Assembly (NCBI GenBank): GCA_029907355.1
Contig: JARYLZ010000028.1
Span: forward strand, 1 to 34,486
Origin: Bacteroidota bacterium
GTDB lineage: Bacteria > Bacteroidota > Ignavibacteria > SZUA-365
DNA: 34,486 nt
Direction: 5' to 3'
Below, piece by piece: positions 12,405 through 28,256 of the stretch (the stretch's first letter is position 1; every line of letters begins with the position of its first letter). Position numbers and translations under genes: made by a program. The notes below the pieces were generated by a model. That model made no database searches and was not told where the DNA came from. It saw only the letters and a list, made by a program, of their open reading frames with translations.

Positions 12405-15400
12405 TTAAGAGGAGACCGCTTTCCGTTTCGTGCTGCGTTTGAGGATCACTCCCTGCCCACTTCTGCCGTCGACGCGGATTTCCACGTCTTCCTCGAGGCG
12501 CACGTGCCGCACGTATGTCAGGTCCGCTTCGACAGGACGTCCGCTCAACCACTCCCAGTCGATCGTGTCCTCCTCGCGGTAATGGCGGACGGTGAAATAC
12601 GCTACGCGAAAGGAGGTCAGGTTCTGGAAGAAATGCGAACCCTGGGAGGGGTCGGGTACCATATTCGGCAGCGAACTCTCAACGATCGCACGCGCAGCGG
12701 AAATGTTCGCGAACTTCACCGGGATGCCGAGCCAGGGGTCGGTTGTCCCCCACCGACCCGGTCCGATGAGGAGGTACGGTCTGTTTTGGTCGGAGAGGGT
12801 CCTGTTGACGGTATCGATTTCCATGGCGATTTCGCGCGTCCGCGAATGGTCGAAGGCGTCGGGTTTGACGTAGACGATGTCGGATAGGCGCTGGACGCCG
12901 TTCCCGAGCGCTCGGTCGCTCTTGAGGAGAATGTCTTCCCGCGGGACAGGTCGGAGGTCGATTTCTTCGAATGTTTCCTCCTTCACCATCGGCCGGACCT
13001 GGAGGAAACTGAACTCCATGGGCAAAGCGTGTTCATCGTCGAGGGTCCCTGCGAACTCGATCTCGACGGGGCAGTTCATCGCGGTTTCGCAGAGTCGCAT
13101 GAGCAAGCGGATGACCCGTGCGAGAGGGACGGCATCGGAATGGAGGATAGGGGCAAAGGTCAACACGCGATGACCGGCGTGCATTGTGCCTTCGTATAAC
13201 GTATCGCTCGCGAAATCATAGGTGGAGGCGACGAATCGGAGCGAGCCGTGCTGTTCGGCCGCCTTGACGTCCACGGAAACGATATTTTGGTCTTCTGTCG
13301 GCTCGCGGAGAACGATGTCGCTTGCGAGATCGAGGGCGAAGAAGCGGCGCTGGGAATTGTTGAAGTAGTCCTTCGTGGAGAGAAACTGCGGGAGCACGGA
13401 GGGATATGCCGGACAGAAACGCAGGCAAAGCCCCCCTTCGACCACGGTTTTCCCGAGACCGAAAGCGAGGTCCACGATGCCGTCCGCCGCCTTGGCGTCG
13501 CCGAACGGGTAGTAGTTGTACGAACGGGCGACGCCGGAGAAATGCGGGTAGAACAGATTCCCGTAACGTTTCCCCGTCACCTGCTGGATGACGACCGCCA
13601 TCTTTTCCTCCTCCAACCGATGGCCGGTCGCCTCGATGTAGTTGCGGGCCTGCCGGAAATAGGTCGACGCGAATACGAACTTGATCGCCTGCAGGAGCCG
13701 CTGGCATCGGACCTCGATGTTGCGGTTGCTGTTGGGAAGCATGAGCGTCGAATAGATTCCCGCGAAGGGCTGGTAGAGCATGTCCTCGAGCATGCTGGAC
13801 GAGCGGACGGCAAGGGGAAACGGGTTGGCGCTGATGATGAGTCGGATATCTTCTTCCACCTCCCGTGGCAGACGTGCGCGAAGGAAATGGCGCAAGACAT
13901 CCTCGTCCGGCGGATTCGCGATGCCGATCTCCAGCAGACCGTTGGACTCGACGAATTCCGAGAAGATGTCCGTGCAGAGAACGTAGGTCTTGGGGATCCG
14001 GATGGTGACGCCGGGGAAGAACCCGGGATTGAGATAATTCTTGAAGATGGTATCGATGAAAGCCAGACCGCGCGCTTTCCCGCCCAGCGACCCGCCGCCG
14101 ATCCTCTGGAACTTCGCATGCGGGTCGTATTCCTCCCTCGAGAAATCCGAGATGATTCCCCGCGTGTCGTTGATCACGAGCTGGTCGATTTGCCCGATCA
14201 TGTACGTCCGGAGTTCATGGATGTCCTTGAACGCGGTGATCTTGATCGGTTTGAGCATTTCGGCCAATTGGAACCGCGTGCGCGCCATCAACCAGTTCGA
14301 AAAATGGTTGTTCGAGGCATGGTAGAGGAGGGACTCGTCGGGGATCTCCGCCAGCTTCCACCGCAGTTCCCGGATATTCCGCGCTCGGTCGACCTCTGTG
14401 CCGTCCGGCAGGCGGAAGATGAAATCGCCGAAACCGAAATTGCGTTTCATGAATTCGCGCACTTCCTGGAGAAGGGTCCGCGAATGCTTGTCGGCGAAGG
14501 TGACACCCTCGGTGACGACCAGGTCCCGGAGTTCCGTCTGGGCGGACTGGACGAGGATCGGCAGGTCGGGTATCGCCTTGCGGACGTTCCGGATGAAGGT
14601 CAAGCCGGCATGCGTGTCCTTCGAACCGCCGATCTCGAAGGTGAGATCCGTGATGATGCCGAGGAGAACGTTCCGGTAGCGTTGGAAGAACCGCCAAGCT
14701 TCCTCGTATGTCGTCGCGTGGAGGATCTTCGGGCGTGCCCGCTGCCGGAGAAGTTTGTCCGCCAGGTTCCTGCCTTCTTCGACGAGCTCCTGCGCCTGCT
14801 GGATCAGTTCGGTGTAAATGAGGGGAAGATACGAGGAGGAAAAGGTCGGCGAATCCTCCACGAGGATGATGGCGCGAACGCCGTACTCGAGGCAATCGAC
14901 CGGGGCGTTCTGGAGATCCTCGAACAGCTTGATGATGGCGAGGAAAAGCTTCCGGTCTCCCGACCAGACGAAAACCCGGTCGAAGTGCACGAAGCTGTCC
15001 CGTTCCATGAGCACGTGGAGCTCGCGCGAGCGGTAGGCGAGCAGGACGAGGATGATATTCGGGTCGATGCCCCGCGCCTGCTCGCAAAAGGTGCGGAGGG
15101 ACATATCGCCCAGCCTCTGCATGGCGATGACCATGTCGAACTGCTGCCGCTTCATCGCATCGAGAGCCGCCTCGCCGGAGTAGACTCTCGTGATGAGCGG
15201 TGCGTAATGGAGATTGAGGTCGAGATATTCGCTGATTATCGCCTCGCTCAGCTGACCGTCGTCCACCAAGGTGTAGAAATCGTAACGGCTCGACACGAGG
15301 AGAATATTGTTGATGCGGATTCGCATCAAATCCTTGAAATCGAGATCATGATTTTCGACGAACGAGGGGGGGATGCCTTCCTCGAGAATGACATCCTTCA

Positions 15401-15446
15401 GCTCATCCTGCATGATGTATTCTCTCGTGTTCGCTTGAGCCGCCAT
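12405..15446 (-). CDS. Tandem-receiver PEP-synthase-like ATP-grasp protein (paralogue 1)
   Basis: 1013 residues from the ATG at 15446, with AAAGG just upstream; M12 is an alternative. Residues about 45-180 form a receiver-like domain in which Met109 sits at the phosphoacceptor position. Residues about 190-335 form a second receiver with E197/D198, acceptor D267 (IITDLTF), S301 and K320. About 445-820 is the PPDK/PEP-synthase N-terminal ATP-grasp domain: GGGSLGGK at 450-457, AVRSSSMLED at 546-555, FLQVRPM at 814-820. A conserved C-terminal region follows, with LIGPGRWG at 893-900 and SQGSHFFQNL at 934-943. I find no phosphohistidine motif and no PEP/pyruvate barrel, so the usual label PEP synthase is unsafe. 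The gene is divergent from gdhA, 232 bases away. Confidence 0.85.
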   Translation of the reverse strand: MAAQANTREYIMQDELKDVILEEGIPPSFVENHDLDFKDLMRIRINNILLVSSRYDFYTLVDDGQLSEAIISEYLDLNLHYAPLITRVYSGEAALDAMKRQQFDMVIAMQRLGDMSLRTFCEQARGIDPNIILVLLAYRSRELHVLMERDSFVHFDRVFVWSGDRKLFLAIIKLFEDLQNAPVDCLEYGVRAIILVEDSPTFSSSYLPLIYTELIQQAQELVEEGRNLADKLLRQRARPKILHATTYEEAWRFFQRYRNVLLGIITDLTFEIGGSKDTHAGLTFIRNVRKAIPDLPILVQSAQTELRDLVVTEGVTFADKHSRTLLQEVREFMKRNFGFGDFIFRLPDGTEVDRARNIRELRWKLAEIPDESLLYHASNNHFSNWLMARTRFQLAEMLKPIKITAFKDIHELRTYMIGQIDQLVINDTRGIISDFSREEYDPHAKFQRIGGGSLGGKARGLAFIDTIFKNYLNPGFFPGVTIRIPKTYVLCTDIFSEFVESNGLLEIGIANPPDEDVLRHFLRARLPREVEEDIRLIISANPFPLAVRSSSMLEDMLYQPFAGIYSTLMLPNSNRNIEVRCQRLLQAIKFVFASTYFRQARNYIEATGHRLEEEKMAVVIQQVTGKRYGNLFYPHFSGVARSYNYYPFGDAKAADGIVDLAFGLGKTVVEGGLCLRFCPAYPSVLPQFLSTKDYFNNSQRRFFALDLASDIVLREPTEDQNIVSVDVKAAEQHGSLRFVASTYDFASDTLYEGTMHAGHRVLTFAPILHSDAVPLARVIRLLMRLCETAMNCPVEIEFAGTLDDEHALPMEFSFLQVRPMVKEETFEEIDLRPVPREDILLKSDRALGNGVQRLSDIVYVKPDAFDHSRTREIAMEIDTVNRTLSDQNRPYLLIGPGRWGTTDPWLGIPVKFANISAARAIVESSLPNMVPDPSQGSHFFQNLTSFRVAYFTVRHYREEDTIDWEWLSGRPVEADLTYVRHVRLEEDVEIRVDGRSGQGVILKRSTKRKAVSS

Positions 15447-15578
15447 GATGCCTTTCGAATATGAATGGTTGCGTCCCCTGACCGCTGGGAAAAGTACGGA
15501 GGCAGGGACGGCTCCGCAAGCCTCCAGACCCGTTCCCTCGCCCTTCCCTTCGCCGCGAAAGTGTTTCTTCCACACCTT

Positions 15579-15618: not shown

Positions 15619-17022
<1,404 letters not shown>

Positions 17023-17093
17023 GCTCCCAGAACCGTCCTGCAGGGACGGCTTCCCTGTTCCTGCCGACCTCCCTCCTGATCGAGGGGATGCGA

Positions 17094-17125
17094 GAAAAGG
17101 GCGCTCCATCTGGAGCGCCCTTTTC
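17094..17125. terminator. Bidirectional terminator between gdhA and the protease gene
   Basis: GAAAAGGGCGCTCCA (17094-17108) is perfectly complementary to 17111-17125, a 15-bp stem with a tight loop. The A-run on one arm and T-run on the other make it a rho-independent terminator in both directions. It sits exactly between two convergent genes, 72 bases past the gdhA stop and about 43 bases past the protease stop. Confidence 0.88.
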
Positions 17126-17167
17126 TTTCCCGGAATCCCGTTCAAAGCACTGCGGTTGTCGGCCCCT

Positions 17168-18964
17168 CTAGGGAGCGGTCAAAGTCACCGAAGAAGTAGG
17201 AACATCGTTTTGCGAGCTGGTGTACTGGTAGCCGGGAGCTGTGAGGCTCGTGAGCGTCATGGTGACGCTGGGCGTCTTATTCTTCTTCATCGACGGGGTC
17301 GAGATGGTGCACTGACCGGCACTGTTCGTGACCGCCGTCCCGCTCCCACCGGCCCAAGAAACCGTAACGGTGGCGCCCGACAAGGGGTTATGATCAGGGT
17401 CGTGAATGGTTACGGTTACGTTGCCTTTCCAATTGACGCCCAACGATGTCGTGTACCCCGCATAACCACCGACATGCATGTCCTGCAGAGACAGGGTCGT
17501 GGCGCAGTCATCGTTGCTGTAACCCGAGGACCCGCCCAGGTTGTATGCCAGCACACGGTAGCAATAATTGGTGGAAGGTGACAATCCGATATCCGTGTAG
17601 GTTACGATATCGGCAGGAACCGTCGCGATGACTGCCCAGAGATTATTCCCTGTCGTTCTTTCGATTTTGAAACCGCTCTCGTTGATCGATTTGTCGGCCC
17701 ATTGAATGGATATGGAGGAAGAAGAAAGCTCGTTGGCAGTTAGTCCGTCAGGAGCGTCGGGAGGTGGGGGCAAAGGTGTGATGAGACTGTACAGGAGGCG
17801 ATTCGGCGAACCGGTCCCGATGTTCGTCAGCACACCGATCGTGGCGGAATTGAGAATCGCGTCCGTCACGTCGCCGGGCGTTAAGTTCGGGTAGGCGGCC
17901 AGGTACAGGGCGGCCACACCCGCGACGTGCGGGGCCGCCATCGACGTGCCCGACCACGTGGCGTACGATGTTGTGCTTGTATAGGTGGCCGACGTAATGG
18001 AGGAACCGGGGGCGAAGATATCGACGCAGGTCCCGTAATTAGAGTACGAGGCACGCGCATCCGTGGATGTCGTGGCCGCGACCGTGATGGCATCCGCCGC
18101 GCTTGCGGGTGAGTACCCGCACGCATTCTTGTGCTCATTTCCCGCCGCAACCGTATACACGACACCGGAACCGACGGAATTATTGACCGCATCATTGAGC
18201 GCTTGGCTGTACGAACCGCCGAGCGACATATTCGCCACTGATGGGCCGTTATGGGTGCTCGTGACCCAGTCGATGCCCGCAATGATCCAGCTGTAGTAGC
18301 CCGAGCCGGTGCAGTCGAGGACGCGCACCGGAACGAGCCGGGCATTCTTGGCAACTCCGACGTTCGTTCCTGCGACCGTACCGGCGACGTGTGTCCCGTG
18401 CCCGTTACAGTCGTTCGCATCGTTGTCATTGTCCACGAAGTCATACCCGGTAAGAACCCTTCCGTAAAATTCCACGTGATCCGGTCGTATACCGGTATCG
18501 ATGATGTACACCGTCACACCGCTCCCGTCTTGCAAATAGAAATAATGCTGGTCGAGCGGAAGTGTGCGCTGGTCGATACGGTCCAACCCCCAGCTCGGCG
18601 GATTGGTCTGGTCACCCCAGGCTGTTGCGATGCCGTCCGGCTCGACGTACGCGACCATGGGGTTGCGTCGTATGGCATCCACAGCCTGCGGGGGCAATGT
18701 TGCGGCAAAACCGCGGATCGCATGACGGTATTTGAAAAGCACTTTTCCCCCGTGTTCCGCAACCAAGCGGTCCGTCACCTCCTCGGGGCGCCCGACCGAC
18801 GGTTTGAACACGACGATGTAGCGTCCTGTCGGGTCGAGCTTGCCGTCCTCCTTTGAAAACGTCGGCTTATCGGGTGAAGCAGGTGCGACGGGTAACTCCG
18901 GCCCGTTCCCGCAGGATGCGAAAAAAATGGCGAAGAGAACCGCGCCGATCATCGAGTGTCTCAT
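17168..18964 (-). CDS. Subtilisin-like (S8) lipoprotein protease with FN3 domain
   Basis: 598 residues from the ATG at 18964, which has AAGGA about nine bases upstream and gives a lipoprotein signal (Cys18 in FFASCGN). The frame stays open upstream but has no protein-like character. An inhibitor I9-type propeptide spans about 47-110. The proteinase-K-like catalytic domain has D156 (YIIDTGIR), H189 ([10 protein letters not shown]), oxyanion N276 (VAAGN) and S341 ([11 protein letters not shown]), so the triad is complete. A proline-rich linker at about 398-405 leads to a fibronectin type III domain (about 404-490) and a C-terminal Ig-like domain common in secreted S8 proteases. It is expected in the outer envelope, degrading external protein. 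It could feed amino acids to the flanking glutamate dehydrogenases, but no operon link is visible. Confidence 0.92.
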
Positions 18965-19456
18965 CGGTTTTTTCCTTCTTTGGTTCCGAGAATCAACACG
19001 TAATTCAACTTGAACATTCTTTATACCATAATCAAGAGGATGTAAAAAATAACACCGATGAATTCTGTGGGGTTCCTGCTGCGTGAACATCGCTTTCTGC
19101 GTTACTATCTGTCGATCGTGAGTACTTACTTGCCGAGAATGGCGTAACAGAGCGGTTATCGTAAGGGGGAGGTGACGATATTGGCCGGGAACAAGGTTTC
19201 TCGAGATCGACCTTTTCCTCACACGATCCCAATGGAACGATTTTTTACCCGTATAGCCGACTCTTGCGCGGAAATACATGCTCGGTCTTCCGGTCAACGC
19301 ATTGGACTCCCTGCCCCGGGTCCGAGGGCAATGCTCGAACGCGAGAGGAGAGGGCTCTGGATTCGCCTCATTTTGGGTTGAAGCGGCCAGAGCATGCATA
19401 TCGTCCCCCACACCGTTGCGGACAGCGGGACTGATTGCCGAAACCACCCGTTCTTG
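18965..19456. other. Intergenic region upstream of the protease gene
   Basis: About 490 bases between the protease start and the 3' end of the second receiver/ATP-grasp gene, which is on the same strand. The part next to the protease (about 18965-19060) is AT-rich and probably holds its promoter. On the minus strand TATAAA (19020-19025) lies 15 bases from TTTACA (19041-19046), a weak candidate. No gene or RNA recognised. Confidence 0.4.
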
Positions 19457-22400
19457 TCACGTTCCCGCTTTGACGACTATGCCTTCCCCGCTCGTCCCGT
19501 CCACGATAACCTTGAGCGGTTCTCCGAAACGGACAAGGCGCACGAAGTCGCTCTCCTCTACGGCGGGTGCAGCGTCGAGCCACCCCCAATCGATGGTGTT
19601 GTCCGCAGCATCGTGCCTTACCGTGAAGTACATGATGTGGAACGAGGTCAAGTTCTGGAAGAAATGGGAACCCTGGGAAGGGTCCGGCATCATGTTCGGC
19701 AAGGATGCCTCCACGATGGCCCGAGACGCGGAGATATCGGGGAAGGTGACGGGAATGCCCAGCGAGGGGTCGGACGAGCCCCAGCGACCGGGGCCGATCA
19801 GCAGGTAAGGCCTGTTTTCCTTCGAGAGCCGCGTGTTCAATGCGGAAATGACGCGAACCATTTCGCGAGTCCTCATGGCGTCGAACGATTCGGGTTTGAT
19901 GTAGACGACGTCATGGAGTTGCTGTACCCCGTTCCCGAGGGCACGTTTCGTCCGAAGGAGGAGGTTTTCGAGGGAGTACGCACCGAGATCGATTTTCGAC
20001 GCCCTCTCCATTTTCACCATGGGGCGGACCTGGAGGAAGCTGAACTCGGCGGGCATGGGTTCCTTCGTACCGAGGCGGACCGCGAATTCCATCTCCACCG
20101 GGCAGTTCATTGCCGTCTCGCAGATTCCGACGAGCACTTGAATCACTTCCGTGAGAGGGATGACGCGCGATTTGAGAATGGGAGCGAAATCCAGCACCCG
20201 CGGACCTTCGCGTGCGACACCTTCGTAGAGTCGGTCGTCCTCTGCGGAGTACGTCGAGGCGAGCCAGGTGAGTACCCCGTGCCGCTCGGCTTCTTGGATG
20301 TTCAGGTGGGCGAGCGTATCCTCCTCGGCGGGCTCTTTCCGGATGATGTCCGTTGCGAGGTTCAATGCCCAAAACATCGTTTGGGCATTGCGGAAGAAAT
20401 CGCGCGCAGAGGTGAACTGCGGGTGAACGGCGGGGTACGCCGGGCAGAACTGCAAGCTGACGCCGCCATCGACAATGGTTTTCCCGAGGCCCAGCGCGAG
20501 GTTGACGACGCCGTCGCGCGGTTTCGCTTTCCCGAACGGGTAGTAATTGAACGAACGGGCGACACCGGAGAGGTGAGGGTAGAAATACCGTTCGTGGATG
20601 CTCCCGACCATTTCCTGGATGATGACGGCCATCCGTTCTTCCTCGACACGGTTCCCTGTCGCCTCGATGTAATTCCGCGCGCCCCGGAACCATGTCGAGG
20701 CGAAAACGTACTTGACCGCTTGGGCGAGATTGAAGAAGCGCACCGAGAAATCGGAGCTGCTGTTCGGAATCATCAAGGTCGCGTAGATGCCTGCGAACGG
20801 CTGGTAGAGTGCGTCTTCCAAGAGGCTCGACGAGCGGATGGCGAGCGGGTACTTCACCTTTCGGAGCATCGTCCGGAGATCCCCGAGGACGGTCGGCGGG
20901 AGGTCTGCGCGGAGGAAAGCCCGCAGAATGCGGTCGTCCGACGGGTCTTCGTTGATAAGGGGGCGCAGGGCGTTGAGTTCGACGAACTGTTCGAAGACGT
21001 CGGTGCCCAGAACGACCGTCCGCGGGATCGAGATGCGCATGCCCTTGTAAGATCCCTGGGGCAGGTACGCGTGGAGGAGACGCTCGACGAAGGCCAGCCC
21101 CCTCGCCTTCCCCCCCAGGGACCCTCCGCCGATCCGCGTGAACGGGGCATCCTCGTCGAACTCCCCGCGGGAAAAATCGGTGACGACCCCCTCCTGTTCC
21201 CTGCGGAGTTCCCGTGATATTTCGACCAAGAGGTATCGCCGCAATTCCTCGGCGTCCTGAAACTGATGGACTTTCACCGGCTTCAGTTTCCGGGCGAGCG
21301 CGACGTGGGTACGGGCCATGAGCCAGTTGGAAAAATGGTCCCGTGAAGCATGATACAGCAGGGACTCGACGGGGATGAATTTCAGGCGTTCACGAAGTTC
21401 CCGCAAGTTGCGTGCACGGGCGAGCTCTGCGCCGTCTGGGCGCCGGAAGACGAAGTCGCCGAACCCGAAATATTGCTTGATGAACGTCCCGACATCCTGG
21501 AGAAGCGTCCGAGAGGTCTTGTCGGCGAAAATGAAACCTTCCGCTTCGACTTCCCCCTTCCGCACCGTCTCCGCTGACTGGACAAGCACGGGAAGATCCG
21601 GTTTCTCGTTCCGGACGTTCCGCGCGAACGTCAATCCCGCGTTCGCTGAACGGTGCCCTTTCATGGATACCGTCATGTCGGTGATGACGCCGAGGAGCGT
21701 CTCGCGGTATGTCGTGTACAGTTCCCAAGCCTCCTCGTACGACACGGCGAGCAGGACCTTGGGACGCGCGCGGTACCGGAGGAACCGATCCGTCATGTTC
21801 GCACCCTCCTCGATGAGCGACCTCCCTTGTCGGATCAGCTCCTCGTACACGAGAGGAAGGTAGGACGAGTAGAAAGCCGGTGAATCCTCCAGGAGGAGGA
21901 TAGAACGAACACCGTAACGAAGGCAGTCGACCGGCGCGTTGCGGATATCTTCCAAGAGCTTGACGATGGCGAGAAAGACTTTCCGGTCGCCGGTCCAGAT
22001 GAAGACCCTATCGAGGAGGGACACGTCCTCCTGTTCGAGGAAGAGGGTCAACTCGCGCGATTGACCGGCCAAGAGGACGACGGGGATATCGGGGTGCTCA
22101 CTCTTCACCGCGCGGCAAAAGGAAAGGAGGTCCATGTCCCCCAGGCGCAGCATGCTGATCACGACGTCGAAACGGCCCGCCCGGAGCGTTTCGAGAGCCG
22201 CCTCGCCGGAATGGACGCGCGTGACATGCGGAGGGGCGATGAGGTTGAGTTCCGCGAACTCCGAAAACACCGCTTCGTCGAGTTGGCCGTCCTCGACGAG
22301 CGTGTAGTAGTCGTAGAGGCTCGAGACGAGGAGGATCTCTCCGATGCGGAACCGCATCAGGTCCTTGAAGCGGAAAGCCTCGACCGCCGAGAGCTCGCCG

Positions 22401-22468
22401 TCCAAGCCGAAACGGCGAAGCACATCGGTGACTTCGTCAAGTCCATGTCTCGCAGCAGGCATCGTCAT
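19457..22468 (-). CDS. Tandem-receiver PEP-synthase-like ATP-grasp protein (paralogue 2)
   Basis: 1003 residues, clearly paralogous to the 12405-15446 protein along its whole length. The first receiver-like domain (about 43-178) has Met106 at the acceptor position. The second (about 188-330) has E194/D195, D264 (VITDMTV), S298 and K317. The ATP-grasp part has GGGSLGGK at 447-454, AIRSSSLLED at 543-552 and FLQVRPM near 811. The C-terminal region keeps LIGPGRWGSSDP and SQGSHFFQNL. As in its paralogue, phosphohistidine and PEP-binding domains are missing, so it probably uses ATP for something other than PEP synthesis. It starts 65 bases after the second glutamate dehydrogenase gene on the same strand and is probably cotranscribed with it. 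The start could also be the third codon, also ATG. Confidence 0.86.
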   Translation of the reverse strand: MTMPAARHGLDEVTDVLRRFGLDGELSAVEAFRFKDLMRFRIGEILLVSSLYDYYTLVEDGQLDEAVFSEFAELNLIAPPHVTRVHSGEAALETLRAGRFDVVISMLRLGDMDLLSFCRAVKSEHPDIPVVLLAGQSRELTLFLEQEDVSLLDRVFIWTGDRKVFLAIVKLLEDIRNAPVDCLRYGVRSILLLEDSPAFYSSYLPLVYEELIRQGRSLIEEGANMTDRFLRYRARPKVLLAVSYEEAWELYTTYRETLLGVITDMTVSMKGHRSANAGLTFARNVRNEKPDLPVLVQSAETVRKGEVEAEGFIFADKTSRTLLQDVGTFIKQYFGFGDFVFRRPDGAELARARNLRELRERLKFIPVESLLYHASRDHFSNWLMARTHVALARKLKPVKVHQFQDAEELRRYLLVEISRELRREQEGVVTDFSRGEFDEDAPFTRIGGGSLGGKARGLAFVERLLHAYLPQGSYKGMRISIPRTVVLGTDVFEQFVELNALRPLINEDPSDDRILRAFLRADLPPTVLGDLRTMLRKVKYPLAIRSSSLLEDALYQPFAGIYATLMIPNSSSDFSVRFFNLAQAVKYVFASTWFRGARNYIEATGNRVEEERMAVIIQEMVGSIHERYFYPHLSGVARSFNYYPFGKAKPRDGVVNLALGLGKTIVDGGVSLQFCPAYPAVHPQFTSARDFFRNAQTMFWALNLATDIIRKEPAEEDTLAHLNIQEAERHGVLTWLASTYSAEDDRLYEGVAREGPRVLDFAPILKSRVIPLTEVIQVLVGICETAMNCPVEMEFAVRLGTKEPMPAEFSFLQVRPMVKMERASKIDLGAYSLENLLLRTKRALGNGVQQLHDVVYIKPESFDAMRTREMVRVISALNTRLSKENRPYLLIGPGRWGSSDPSLGIPVTFPDISASRAIVEASLPNMMPDPSQGSHFFQNLTSFHIMYFTVRHDAADNTIDWGWLDAAPAVEESDFVRLVRFGEPLKVIVDGTSGEGIVVKAGT

Positions 22469-22533: not shown

Positions 22534-23820
22534 TCATACCCACCCGCGGAGTTTGCACGCTTCCGCGACACGGGAGACCGCGATCATCGTTGCGGCTTCG
22601 CGCATGGGGATGGACCGTTTCTGCGCGAGTTCCGAAACCGCGTAGTATGCCTCGGTCATTTTCGTGTCGAGCTTGCTCAGCACCTCGTCGCGCGTCCAGT
22701 AGTAATTCATGTTGCTCTGCACCTGCTCGAAATAACTGCAGGTCACCCCCCCGGCGTTGGCGAGGAAATCGGGGATGAGTTGCACACCCGTCTCGCGCAG
22801 GTACTCGTCGGCCTCGGGAGTGGTCGGCCCGTTGGCACCCTCGACGATGAAACGCACGCGCGGGTTGATGCTCCGGACATTCTCCGCATGGATCTGGTTC
22901 TCGAGGGCGGCGGGAATGAGGACATCCACATCCTGTTTGAGCCAGTCGTCGCCGTCGAGGACGTCGAGGCCGAGTTCGTCGGCGCGGGAGCGGTCGATTT
23001 CCCCATAGGAATTCGTAATGGAACGCAGGGCGGGAAGATCGATCCCCTCGCGCTTGCGGTAAGTGAAGGCGCGTTGTTCGCGCTGGTCCCAGCATGCGAC
23101 CGCCGTCACTTTCCCCCCGTAAGACGTGAGGAGTTCGATGGCATGCTGCGCCACGTTCCCGAAACCCTGGACGGACGCCGAGACACCGGCCAGCGAACCG
23201 CCCGCCTCGCGGACCGCCTCACGGAGGATGTAGATGACACCGTATCCCGTCGCTTCGGTTCGGCCGAGCGATCCTCCCATGCTGACCGGTTTGCCCGTGA
23301 TGAACCCGGGCGCTTTCCTCCCCGTGATCCGTTCGTACTCGTCGAGCATCCAAAGCATGTGCTGCGCCGTGGTCATGACATCGGGGGCAGGGACGTCCTG
23401 CTCGGGGCCGATGCATTCGGCGACTTTGCGGATCCAGCCTCTGCATAAAGCTTCCTGCTCACGCATGGAGAGATTGTGGGGATCGCAGATGACGCCGCCC
23501 TTCCCCCCGCCAAGGGGCAAATCGACAACGGCGGTTTTCCACGTCATCCACATGGCCAGAGCACGGACGGTATCGATCGTCTCGTGGGGGTGAAAACGGA
23601 TCCCCCCTTTGCTCGGACCGCGCGCGGTGTTGTGCTGGACGCGAAAACCCCGAAAGACGGCAGTCCCGCCGTCGTCCATACGGATGGGGATCGAGAAATG
23701 GATCTCGCGTTCCGGTTCGCGGAGAAGCTGCCGCGTCGCGGTATCCAACCCGAGTCGTTCCGCCACGACATCGAATTGCTGCTGCGCCATGCGGAAGGGA
23801 TTGAAAGATTCGACCGCCAT
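22534..23820 (-). CDS. Glu/Leu/Phe/Val-type glutamate dehydrogenase (second GDH)
   Basis: 428 residues from the ATG at 23820, with GAGG six bases upstream. An open extension of 45 codons upstream has no family similarity. It belongs to the shorter, RocG/GudB-like hexameric subfamily. K71 (KGGIRFHP), catalytic K107 (LPLGGGKGG) and D147 (VPAPDVMT) are present, with a Rossmann motif QGFGNVAQHA. Members are usually NAD-linked and catabolic, but coenzyme cannot be fixed by eye; a leucine dehydrogenase is less likely given the length and motifs. The next gene on the strand, 65 bases on, is a receiver/ATP-grasp protein. The GAF/nucleotidyltransferase protein is divergent from it across a 175-base gap. 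Confidence 0.9.
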   Translation of the reverse strand: MAVESFNPFRMAQQQFDVVAERLGLDTATRQLLREPEREIHFSIPIRMDDGGTAVFRGFRVQHNTARGPSKGGIRFHPHETIDTVRALAMWMTWKTAVVDLPLGGGKGGVICDPHNLSMREQEALCRGWIRKVAECIGPEQDVPAPDVMTTAQHMLWMLDEYERITGRKAPGFITGKPVSMGGSLGRTEATGYGVIYILREAVREAGGSLAGVSASVQGFGNVAQHAIELLTSYGGKVTAVACWDQREQRAFTYRKREGIDLPALRSITNSYGEIDRSRADELGLDVLDGDDWLKQDVDVLIPAALENQIHAENVRSINPRVRFIVEGANGPTTPEADEYLRETGVQLIPDFLANAGGVTCSYFEQVQSNMNYYWTRDEVLSKLDTKMTEAYYAVSELAQKRSIPMREAATMIAVSRVAEACKLRGWV

Positions 23821-23995
23821 GAGAACCTCGTTTTGAAATGTTGACCGCGTGGAAAATGACGGAGAAAAACGAAAACGAAGTAAAAAGTAGGTGTTTTCCG
23901 GAAGGGAAAAAAGGCGCCCCAGATTCAGGACACCGCATGAAAACCGCACTACCATTTCACAGCGTCTTCCCCTATCTTCATGAACGGAGGGGAAT

Positions 23996-26900
23996 ATGAA
24001 CGAGAGGAAAAGCGGTACGAAGTCGCCCCAGCAGGGGTATTCGCAAAATATTCATGAGCTTCTCCACGTTCTCGGCGAACGGGCAAAAGAGCTCAACTGC
24101 CTGTACCGCATCGAGGAAATCCTCATGCAGAAAGAGCGGAATATCGAGGATCTCCTCCACGAAATCGCCGAGGCGATCCCGAGCGGCTGGCAGTTCCCCG
24201 ACATTTGCCGTGCGCGAATCCGGTACGGGGAGGCGGTGTACAGCAGCCCGGATTTCCGAGAAACACCCTGGATGATTTCCACGGATATCACCGTCCAGGA
24301 GCGTGTAGAGGGTGGGATCGAAGTCTGCTACCTTACAGGGGTCCCGCATGCCGACGAGGGGCCCTTCCTGAAAGAGGAACGCAAACTCCTGCAAACCATC
24401 GCGGACCGCATCTCTTCCCATCTCCTCCATCGCAGACTCCGGAACGTCTTCCTCGAACTCGAGTCGGCAGGTCCCGGCGACAAGTCGCGAAGCGAATGGA
24501 TGATCGTCCTCGGCGTCCTTCGGCGTACCGACCAAAACCTCTACACGCGCATTTCCCGGAAAATGCTCAACCATCTCTGTCGCATCGGCGTCAAGGAAGC
24601 GACCACGCTCCTGCAAAGCTTCAGCGGGACCAACCCCTCCGAAGCGGCCGACAGCGTCATCGGAGAGAACCGCCCCCGCCAGCGCGAGGAACTCCACGAT
24701 TTCATCATTACGAGCGACGAGATTTTCATCATCGCCTCGAATTACCTCAGCGACCAGGATATCCTTTCGAACATCCAGAAATGGATCAAGGACGACAAGG
24801 CGTCGTTCCTCGTCAATGCCGTCGAAAATCTCGATACCTCACTGGCGGAAATCACCGATGCGCTCGGGCGTTTCTACCACCTCTTCCCGGATGGACTCGA
24901 CGTCACCCCATCGACCGATAAGGTTCTCCGAGTCTCCCTCATACGCCGCCTCCTCAGCGAGGACCTCGATTTCATCAACATCGCCAAGGCGTTCATCGAC
25001 ATCCAGGATTTCCATGACCTCCTGCAACGCGTAATCTACGCTCAGCGGAGTCACGGGAAGCTCGGCGGAAAGAGCACGGGACTTTACCTCGCCTCCCAGA
25101 TCCTTCGAAAGAACACCGACCGGGAACCGTTGCTTCGCAACATCCGGATCCCGAAATCCTGGTACATCGCATCGGACGTGATCCTGAATTTCATCCATTA
25201 CAACAATCTCGAGGAGGTGTTCAACCAGAAATACCTCGACATCGACCAGATCCGGGACGAGTACCCCCACCTCGTACAAGTCTTCAAGAACTCGTATTTC
25301 CCACCCGATATCGTGAAAGGGTTGTCCATGGCCCTCGACGATCTCGGGGACACCCCCATCATTGTCCGGAGCTCGAGCTTGCTCGAGGACAGCTCGAGCG
25401 GCGCATTCAGCGGGAAGTACAAGAGTCTTTTCCTCGCCAACACCGGCACGAAGAGCGAAAGGCTGGTCGCTCTGATGGACGCGATCGCCGAGGTGTACGC
25501 TTCCATCTTCGGCCCGGATCCCATCGAGTACCGGACGGAACGCGGACTGCTGGATTTCCACGAGGAGATGGGCGTCATCATCCAGGAGGTCGTCGGCACG
25601 AAGATCGGGAAATACTTCTTCCCTGCATTCGCCGGCGTGGCGTTCAGCAACAACGAGTTCCGCTGGTCGCCCCGGATCAAGCGGGAGGACGGTCTCATTC
25701 GTATGGTGCCTGGGCTGGGGACGCGGGCCGTCGATCGCCTCAGCGACGACTACCCCATTCTCATCGCGCCCGGCCAGCCGAACCTGCGCGTGAACATATC
25801 CCCCGAGGAGACGGTCCGCTATGCCCCGAGGAACATTGATGTCATCAACCTCGAAACGGGGATGTTCGAAACGATGGATCTACGTACGCTCCTCCGCGAG
25901 TGCGGGTGGATGTACCCCCTGATCGACAAGATCGTTTCCATCGTGGATGGTGACCATGTACGCGCGCCCGTCGGTTCCCATATCGATTTCGACCGGACGC
26001 AAACGGCCGTCTCGTTCGACGGCCTCATTTCCTCGACCCCCTTCGTCCGGCAGATTCATGCCATGCTCCGCATACTCCAAGAGAAGCTCGGCACGCCGGT
26101 CGACATCGAGTTCGCCAGCGATGGGAAAAACCTTTACCTCCTCCAATGCCGGCCGCAGAGCTTCACACGGCATAGTGCACCCGCACCGATCCCGCGGGAC
26201 ATCTCGAACCACAGGAAACTCTTCACCGCCAACCGGTACATCTCCAACGGCAGTGTACCGGAAATCACGCACATCGTCTACATCGATCCCACCAAGTACA
26301 ACGAGCTCCCCGAACGAAACGACCTCCTCGCCGTCGGTCGGGCCGTGGGGCGCCTCAACAAGCTCCTCCCGAAGCGACAATTCATCCTGATGGGACCCGG
26401 TCGCTGGGGAAGTCGCGGAGACATCAAGCTCGGCGTGAACGTCACGTACTCGGACATCAACAACACCGCCGTGCTCATCGAAGTCGCACGGAAGCAGGGG
26501 AATTACGTCCCGGACCTTTCCTTCGGGACGCATTTTTTCCAGGATCTCGTCGAAGCGTCGATTCGTTACCTCCCCCTGTACCCAGACGACCCAGGGGTCA
26601 TCTTCAACGAAGGGTTCTTCCTCCGCATGCCGAACATCCTCGCCGACATCCTGCCGGAGTTCGCATACCTCGCCGATACGATCCGCGTGATCGACGTGCC
26701 GAAGTGCACGGACGGAATGATCCTGCGCATCCTGATGAATGCGGATCTCGAGGAGGCAGTGGGATACCTCAGCCCACCTTCCAAGAGCAAGCCGTCCGAC
26801 TCGAACGGCCATTACCCCGAGCCCGAGCAGAGCGACGAGCATTGGAGCTGGCGGCTCCGTATGGCCGAACGCATCGCTGCGCATCTGGACCCGGACCGTT

Positions 26901-27229
26901 TCGGTGTCAAGGCGATGTACGTCATCGGGAGCACGAAGAACGCCACGGCCGGCCCCGACAGCGATATCGATCTGCTCGTCCATCTCGACGGCAACCCCGA
27001 ACAGCGGCGGGAACTCGAGCTCTGGCTCCATGGGTGGAGCCTCTGCCTCGCCGAAATCAATTACCTCCGCACGGGGTATCGTTCCCAGGGACTGCTCGAC
27101 GTCCATTACGTTACCGACGAGGATATCGCCCGTCGCTCTTCCTACGCCGTGAAGATCGATGCCGTCACGGATGCCGCACGGCAGTTGAAACTCGGCAAGG
27201 CGAAGCCCCGCGGCACCCTGAAAGGCTGA
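23996..27229 (+). CDS. GAF-ATP-grasp-nucleotidyltransferase protein, PEP-synthase-like
   Basis: 1077 residues with a strong Shine-Dalgarno (GGAGGGG) before the ATG. Residues about 20-150 look like a GAF sensor domain preceded by a helix (LYRIEEILMQKERNIEDLL). A helical region follows to about 345. A PPDK/PEP-synthase N-terminal ATP-grasp domain comes next: GKLGGKSTG at 354-362, IVRSSSLLED at 456-465, YLLQCRP later. The C-terminal module shared with the two tandem-receiver proteins follows (LMGPGRWGSRGD, SFGTHFFQDL). The last 120 residues are a minimal nucleotidyltransferase domain: GS at 978-979, D990 and D992 (SDIDLLVH), a probable third carboxylate D1035 (LLDVHYV). No phosphohistidine or PEP-barrel domain is seen. 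It is divergent from the second gdh. Confidence 0.86.
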   Translation: MNERKSGTKSPQQGYSQNIHELLHVLGERAKELNCLYRIEEILMQKERNIEDLLHEIAEAIPSGWQFPDICRARIRYGEAVYSSPDFRETPWMISTDITVQERVEGGIEVCYLTGVPHADEGPFLKEERKLLQTIADRISSHLLHRRLRNVFLELESAGPGDKSRSEWMIVLGVLRRTDQNLYTRISRKMLNHLCRIGVKEATTLLQSFSGTNPSEAADSVIGENRPRQREELHDFIITSDEIFIIASNYLSDQDILSNIQKWIKDDKASFLVNAVENLDTSLAEITDALGRFYHLFPDGLDVTPSTDKVLRVSLIRRLLSEDLDFINIAKAFIDIQDFHDLLQRVIYAQRSHGKLGGKSTGLYLASQILRKNTDREPLLRNIRIPKSWYIASDVILNFIHYNNLEEVFNQKYLDIDQIRDEYPHLVQVFKNSYFPPDIVKGLSMALDDLGDTPIIVRSSSLLEDSSSGAFSGKYKSLFLANTGTKSERLVALMDAIAEVYASIFGPDPIEYRTERGLLDFHEEMGVIIQEVVGTKIGKYFFPAFAGVAFSNNEFRWSPRIKREDGLIRMVPGLGTRAVDRLSDDYPILIAPGQPNLRVNISPEETVRYAPRNIDVINLETGMFETMDLRTLLRECGWMYPLIDKIVSIVDGDHVRAPVGSHIDFDRTQTAVSFDGLISSTPFVRQIHAMLRILQEKLGTPVDIEFASDGKNLYLLQCRPQSFTRHSAPAPIPRDISNHRKLFTANRYISNGSVPEITHIVYIDPTKYNELPERNDLLAVGRAVGRLNKLLPKRQFILMGPGRWGSRGDIKLGVNVTYSDINNTAVLIEVARKQGNYVPDLSFGTHFFQDLVEASIRYLPLYPDDPGVIFNEGFFLRMPNILADILPEFAYLADTIRVIDVPKCTDGMILRILMNADLEEAVGYLSPPSKSKPSDSNGHYPEPEQSDEHWSWRLRMAERIAAHLDPDRFGVKAMYVIGSTKNATAGPDSDIDLLVHLDGNPEQRRELELWLHGWSLCLAEINYLRTGYRSQGLLDVHYVTDEDIARRSSYAVKIDAVTDAARQLKLGKAKPRGTLKG

Positions 27230-27287: not shown

Positions 27288-28148
27288 TCAGAGAAGAACG
27301 CGTTCCGCGTCGCGGGGGTTGTCGAGATCGAAACGCACGAGGGCGAGTCGGTGGTTGTCATGAGCGGCGCCGAATGCCCGGGTCGAACCGATGTCCTCCC
27401 ACCACGCGCCGGTCAGCCGTGCGGACTCGTGAACGTGCCCGTGCATCGTGACGCGAGGCTGCAGACGTTCGATGAGACGGCGGATGGCGACGCTCCCGAC
27501 ATGAACATCCAGCGGGGCATGGTCGAACATCTTTCCATCGAGAGCCGCCCGGTCGAGAGCCGTCCGGTACGGCGGGGCATGGAAGAGAAGCACCAGGCGC
27601 GACGGCTCGCACCCCGCCGTCAATTCCTCCAGATCGTCCGCGATCGTCCGGTACCGCAGAAGTTCCAGATCCTGTTCGACGGTGAATCTTCCGTCTTCCG
27701 GTGCCATACATCCGGGGTCGACGAACCGCGAGACGTCGTACCGTTCCCAGTCCTTGAGCAGGAACGGGGTCGGGGGGACGCATGAGTACCCGGCTACGAG
27801 GTAAGCCCTGTCCTCGAAACGGCGCATGTGGGCGTAATGCCAGTAACCGCGTCGCTCCCCTTCGAGGAAATCGCTCTCGAGAATTCTCGGGTCGTCGTTC
27901 CCCGCAATGAGGTACACGCTCGGGTACTGTCGTCCGAGTTGGCTTCGCACGCGGGAAAAACACGCGAAGAGCGTTTCCTCCGCAAACGACGAACGGTGCT
28001 TCTCCCCCGCCGCGATACGCAGACCGCCCGGGAATATATCGCCGCCGATGAAGAGGATATCGGGCGGACTCGCCTTCAAGGCATGCTCGAGAGTTCGGAA
28101 TCGGCCTGCATGCCCGTGAAGATCCGAGACGAACCAGCATGTGATCAT
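27288..28148 (-). CDS. Calcineurin-like metallophosphoesterase
   Basis: 286 residues from the ATG at 28148. The dimetal motifs run in order: SDLHGH (D9, H11), GGD at 35-37, GND at 83-85, H190 in LLFHAPP and GHVH at 237-240. All the usual metal ligands are present, so it should be an active phosphoesterase. The small single-domain form resembles YfcE/DUF-type or Icc-like enzymes, and the substrate is unknown. The start has no Shine-Dalgarno; an upstream extension of 27 codons is possible. Its 3' end faces the end of the GAF/nucleotidyltransferase gene across about 60 bases, in which I see no clear terminator. Confidence 0.85.
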   Translation of the reverse strand: MITCWFVSDLHGHAGRFRTLEHALKASPPDILFIGGDIFPGGLRIAAGEKHRSSFAEETLFACFSRVRSQLGRQYPSVYLIAGNDDPRILESDFLEGERRGYWHYAHMRRFEDRAYLVAGYSCVPPTPFLLKDWERYDVSRFVDPGCMAPEDGRFTVEQDLELLRYRTIADDLEELTAGCEPSRLVLLFHAPPYRTALDRAALDGKMFDHAPLDVHVGSVAIRRLIERLQPRVTMHGHVHESARLTGAWWEDIGSTRAFGAAHDNHRLALVRFDLDNPRDAERVLL

Positions 28149-28256
28149 GAGTCCGCGCCCGCGCTCTTCCCCCGGCCTATGCCCCTTCGAGAGGACATCG
28201 CTCCCAGCAGCGCCCGTCCTGCAACCCATGCGGGAGCATCATCACGGCATCCCCCT

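Follow-up and report, generated by a model that had tools for sequence, protein, structure and literature searches.

Glutamate dehydrogenase (GDH) connects carbon and nitrogen metabolism, and in actinobacteria it has dedicated protein regulators, the FHA proteins GarA and OdhI; to our knowledge, no dedicated GDH regulator is known in most bacterial phyla. Reversible nucleotidylation coupled to sensing is found elsewhere in nitrogen metabolism, with GlnE and GlnD acting on glutamine synthetase and PII. Two other groups of proteins are close to the locus described here by virtue of their domains: the ATP-grasp enzymes PEP synthase, pyruvate phosphate dikinase and rifampin phosphotransferase (RPH), and MntA, the antitoxin of the type VII HepT/MntA systems. 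In RPH, Lys22 and Arg117 position ATP (PMC4844700), while the MntA residues equivalent to a GSx10DxD motif and a third Asp bind Mg-ATP and AMPylate HepT (PMC7641770).

The locus lies in a stretch of 34,486 nucleotides from a Bacteroidota bacterium of the Ignavibacteria, hereafter the window, and its central gene (23996–27229, +) encodes a fusion protein of 1077 aa (FUS). From the N-terminus, FUS comprises a GAF-type sensor (residues 13–157; 24032–24466, +), an all-helical domain (165–345; 24488–25030, +), a PPDK_N ATP-grasp domain (355–733; 25058–26194, +), a domain named X (734–935; 26195–26800, +) and an MNT-type nucleotidyltransferase (NT) domain (945–1066; 26828–27193, +). The first-pass annotation had reported a fusion of GAF, ATP-grasp and nucleotidyltransferase domains beside a GDH gene; the ORF, the Pfam matches, the AlphaFold and Foldseek results and the relatives all confirmed it. 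Since about 95 full-length relatives from many phyla have the same fusion, a chance ORF and an assembly artefact can both be ruled out, and so can the local oddity that the annotation had considered. The X domain, a conserved convergent phosphoesterase gene, a second GDH gene and two more genes for PPDK_N proteins are features of the window that the annotation did not mention, and the open-access literature gave no account of the FUS fusion or of DUF5752, a domain of these two proteins.

Regarding its N-terminal half, Pfam called no GAF domain in the window FUS protein, and among the 97 related sequences of the family alignment it gave a weak match in 24 (best E 1.3e-3). The AlphaFold model of residues 1–352 had a mean pLDDT of 88, and its best Foldseek matches, the GAF domains of NifA and NlhI, had a probability of 1.00 and E values of only 7e-3 to 1e-2; as modelled, the N-terminal domain has a GAF fold. 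The helical domain is present in all the FUS-type variants examined and had no match; the conserved RX4HXY of a HEPN partner was not seen in it by eye.

As for the central part of the protein, the PPDK_N match (PF01326) spans residues 355–733 with an E value of 5.8e-58, and the unit formed by the ATP-grasp and X domains, hereafter the core, is common to three subfamilies: FUS itself, stand-alone PPDK_N-X proteins of about 585 aa (PART) and proteins with receiver and DUF5752 domains. Across 186 sequences, K359, R458, E464, D465, E705, Q717 and R719 of the ATP-grasp domain, together with the GRWG motif (802–805), D809 and H846 of X, are conserved at 90% or more in all three subfamilies; K359 and R458, which match Lys22 and Arg117 of RPH, are conserved throughout. 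FUS is thus like the dikinase family in its PPDK_N ATP-grasp domain and ATP-binding residues, but it differs in that no His swivel and no PEP/pyruvate- or rifampin-binding domain was found in it; X stands in their place, and the GAF and NT domains are added. The Pfam scan of FUS found neither a phosphohistidine swivel domain nor a C-terminal PEP/pyruvate-binding barrel, the C-terminus being occupied by NT instead, and a canonical His swivel at 734–935 was rejected, for a profile alignment with E. coli PpsA was significant over the ATP-grasp domain only. X was modelled by AlphaFold with mostly good confidence and had no confident PDB fold among the Foldseek matches listed. H846, within a G[TS]HFF motif (codon at 26531–26533, +), may act as a stand-in phosphate carrier, and X as a phosphate acceptor is our guess.

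The C-terminal domain of FUS is an MNT-type NT, of the protein-AMPylating type and with its full motif. Pfam matched NTP_transf_2 at residues 968–1012 (E 4.9e-7, above the gathering score), and did so in 96 of the 97 family members. The motif consists of G978 and S979, ten residues and D990-x-D992 (26927–26971, +), followed by the third Asp, D1035 (27098–27100, +); among the 97 relatives, G978, S979 and D1035 are invariant, and D990 and D992 reach at least 90%, so that the complete signature read at first pass is intact in FUS and conserved beyond it. The structure prediction proposed in that reading did return a nucleotidyltransferase fold: for the model of residues 733–1077, the best Foldseek matches were MNT-type nucleotidyltransferases, including 2rff and MntA (probability 1.00, E 3–4e-3). 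The NCBIfam MntA model scored 19.6 bits, far under its 60-bit cut-off. FUS shares with MntA the MNT fold, the GSx10DxD motif and the third Asp, but no HEPN (HepT) toxin was found among the window proteins scanned, and its NT is fused to a sensor and an ATP-grasp domain and paired with a metallophosphoesterase and GDH. The GlnE and GlnD family models of Pfam and NCBIfam gave no match to FUS; both sequence and domain order differ. Like these enzymes, FUS would serve nitrogen metabolism by a nucleotidylation that is reversible and coupled to a sensed signal; its eraser, instead, would be a separate calcineurin-like enzyme, and its link is to GDH rather than to glutamine synthetase or PII.

The GDH gene next to FUS (22534–23955, −; Pfam ELFV_dehydrog, 2e-70; true start probably near 23820) belongs to a FUS-linked clade, hereafter clade A. 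GDH is mostly divergent from FUS in the family of the window, where PART was not found. At distant loci from many phyla, the phylum names being those of metagenome-assembled genomes in which misbinning is possible, the gene order is GDH, often PART, FUS, and a convergent metallophosphoesterase gene (MPE). Among the 54 distant named loci whose upstream flank spans 4 kb or more, 50 have a GDH of the same clade on the same strand and at most 3.8 kb upstream of FUS; PART is directly upstream of FUS at 50 of the 66 loci with enough flank, and MPE directly downstream at 37 of 58, in convergent orientation in 36 of the 37.

The FUS-linked GDHs form a separate clade, with 62–79% identity to the window copy, while the best GDH of genomes devoid of FUS reaches about 51%. 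In the phylum of the window (198 genomes), FUS occurs in 19 genomes and clade-A GDH in 18, all of them among the 19, compared with none of the 179 others; in a second phylum (199 genomes), FUS occurs in 44 and clade-A GDH in 38, with both in 36, that is, clade A is present in 36 of the 44 FUS genomes and in 2 of the 155 others. Fisher tests of this co-occurrence, which ignore shared ancestry, gave 1e-24 and 2e-29, respectively. The Mantel correlation between FUS and GDH was modest (0.39), and the GDH–PART and GDH–MPE distance correlations were within the permutation range and were set aside. Overall, the genomic association of FUS with GDH is strong and well supported.

The association with GDH extends to the other core proteins. 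The window encodes two paralogues with a receiver-DUF5752-PPDK_N-X arrangement: one, with one or more receiver domains (19457–22468, −), adjoins the clade-A GDH, and the other, with a receiver domain (12405–15575, −), is divergent from the second GDH (15679–17022, +), an ELFV dehydrogenase of a different class that retains the catalytic lysines. An ELFV dehydrogenase gene, including the different GDH class, lies within 4 kb of 40 of the 50 receiver-DUF5752-PPDK_N genes. In the second phylum, FUS-type proteins, classified by the query range that they matched, comprise GAF, core and NT (19), GAF and core (12) or the core only (16), and a GDH gene is found within 4 kb in 15, 8 and 10 cases, respectively; one of the 10 GDHs near a core-only protein has only 51% identity, and several of the proteins not close to GDH are on short contigs. 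Furthermore, in two lineages of the phylum of the window the NT is degenerate, without GS or DxD, and GDH is still adjacent. Since relatives without NT, and some without GAF, keep the link to GDH, this link belongs to the ATP-grasp/X core and NT is not essential to it. The initial idea of a nitrogen-control nucleotidyltransferase device beside gdh stands in part: the link to GDH is real (50 of 54 loci), but it does not run through NT, whose partner is MPE.

The MPE gene of the window (27288–28229, −) converges on FUS and encodes a calcineurin-like metallophosphoesterase that, by eye, retains the motifs D-x-H, GGD, GND, H and GHVH. MPE is present in 10 of the 198 genomes of the phylum of the window, all with an intact NT, and in 15 of the 199 of the second phylum, 12 of which have a fused NT. 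In the remaining three (G276, G289 and G314) the core has no NT, and the notion that MPE is unrelated to NT was rejected, as each has a free-standing NT gene of 172–222 codons (stop to stop) that retains the motif; this gene converges on MPE and overlaps it, and the two lie on a different contig from GDH and the core (L175:9747–11318, L177:9071–10684 and L178:7415–9052). NT is present, then, in 25 of the 25 sampled MPE-positive genomes, and the free NT genes beside MPE indicate that NT and MPE behave as a pair independent of the core. MPE is absent from 7 of 19 NT-positive genomes of one phylum and from 5 of 15 of the other. The pairing would fit a writer and its eraser.

The protein that NT would modify was sought among residues that track its presence. 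When 79 GDHs of NT-positive loci were compared with 25 from loci where NT is lacking or degenerate, only M135 and V248 tracked NT, and no nucleophile (Tyr, Ser, Thr or His) did so. Several FUS positions do track it, for example H759 in X, a His with NT and mostly a Tyr without it, and Y37 in a GAF helix. Because NT-tracking residues occur in FUS and no such nucleophile occurs in GDH, this sequence comparison, which ancestry confounds, would make the core a likelier target of NT than GDH. The same result weighs on the proposal that NT directly adenylylates or uridylylates GDH, as GlnE does glutamine synthetase, with MPE removing the nucleotide. An intact MNT motif, the constant adjacency of GDH and FUS, the existence of a phosphoesterase partner and a segment peculiar to this GDH clade (CWDQxxQxxY/F, after the Rossmann glycine motif and absent from other GDHs) are all in keeping with it; the GDHs of NT-lacking lineages, however, do not stand apart at the conserved nucleophiles, GDH-linked relatives without NT are common, and in three genomes NT and MPE are on a contig apart from GDH. 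Nucleotidylation of GDH itself, raised at first pass, is therefore left without positive support, and we regard it as unlikely.

Two other explanations dispense with regulation of GDH by FUS. The cluster might be a biosynthetic or catabolic pathway in which the core phosphorylates or activates a GDH-linked substrate, a 2-oxo acid or glutamate, that NT then nucleotidylates: PPDK/PEPS relatives use a 2-oxo acid and RPH/PigC relatives use small molecules, 2-oxo acids are products of ELFV dehydrogenases, and core proteins are linked to both GDH classes. Such a metabolic role appears improbable, given that GAF and receiver domains on core proteins suggest regulation, that neither the PEP/pyruvate-binding barrel nor the His swivel domain was detected, and that no other pathway enzyme recurs among the window genes tested. 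Alternatively, GDH and the FUS-system genes might only be co-regulated under shared conditions, with no physical or chemical interaction, and co-expression by itself can yield conserved operons; yet in two phyla they occur almost one to one with a single GDH clade, even in genomes where they lie apart from it (e.g., G004, G203 and G237), which argues for functional dependence and makes mere co-regulation very unlikely.

The reading that we prefer, while giving it a little less than an even chance, is that of a GAF-gated, ATP-dependent regulator of GDH, in which NT adds a nucleotide and MPE removes it; the core or a partner would be a more probable acceptor than GDH. FUS would be the dedicated companion of one GDH clade, comparable in this proposed role to GarA and OdhI, which are unrelated to it and have neither an ATP-grasp domain nor a nucleotidyltransferase. 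Its constant part, the PPDK-type ATP-grasp domain with X, would use ATP and act on or with GDH, with phosphate possibly carried by H846, and the GAF domain would sense a small molecule, at a guess 2-oxoglutarate, glutamine or an adenine nucleotide. The nucleotide that the C-terminal NT would attach is probably AMP, and its acceptor would be one of the system's own proteins, most likely the core itself or an operon partner such as the PPDK_N-X protein of about 585 aa of the relatives; the convergent MPE would strip the nucleotide off, making the GDH companion a reversible switch. Catalysis of any kind and the direction of control are likewise what we infer. Broader still, and possible but doubtful, is a widespread and undescribed type of GDH control, in which a PPDK-like ATP-grasp core with a phosphate-accepting X domain of a new type would be switched by an MNT writer and a calcineurin-like phosphoesterase eraser.

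This companion system points to an undescribed control of GDH, a central enzyme of nitrogen metabolism, with a mechanism that is tentative. In phyla ranging from Acidobacteria and Zixibacteria to Ignavibacteria, Planctomycetes and Spirochaetes, one GDH clade is almost never without the FUS family, so that the control of GDH there can be put to the test with named genes; NT, being fused, lost, degenerate or free beside the phosphoesterase, offers a natural experiment for telling apart what each part does, and X comes to light as an uncharacterised domain in which a His is invariant.

Finally, some minor features accompany these genes. The ORF at 15697–17145 (−), considered as a conserved neighbour, was rejected as the antisense shadow of the second GDH (15679–17022, +). 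A subtilase (S8) gene (17168–19447, −) is located between the two GDH/core modules of the window and was not detected there in the loci of relatives. A third GDH, of the same class as the second, is found at G000:C55:44870–46123, and at L182:9643–12301 two more GDH-type ORFs lie directly 3' of a GAF and core protein without NT. The GAF-like module of the FUS type is also present at the N-terminus of a PAS-PAS-histidine kinase of the same genome (L004:539–2461, +).
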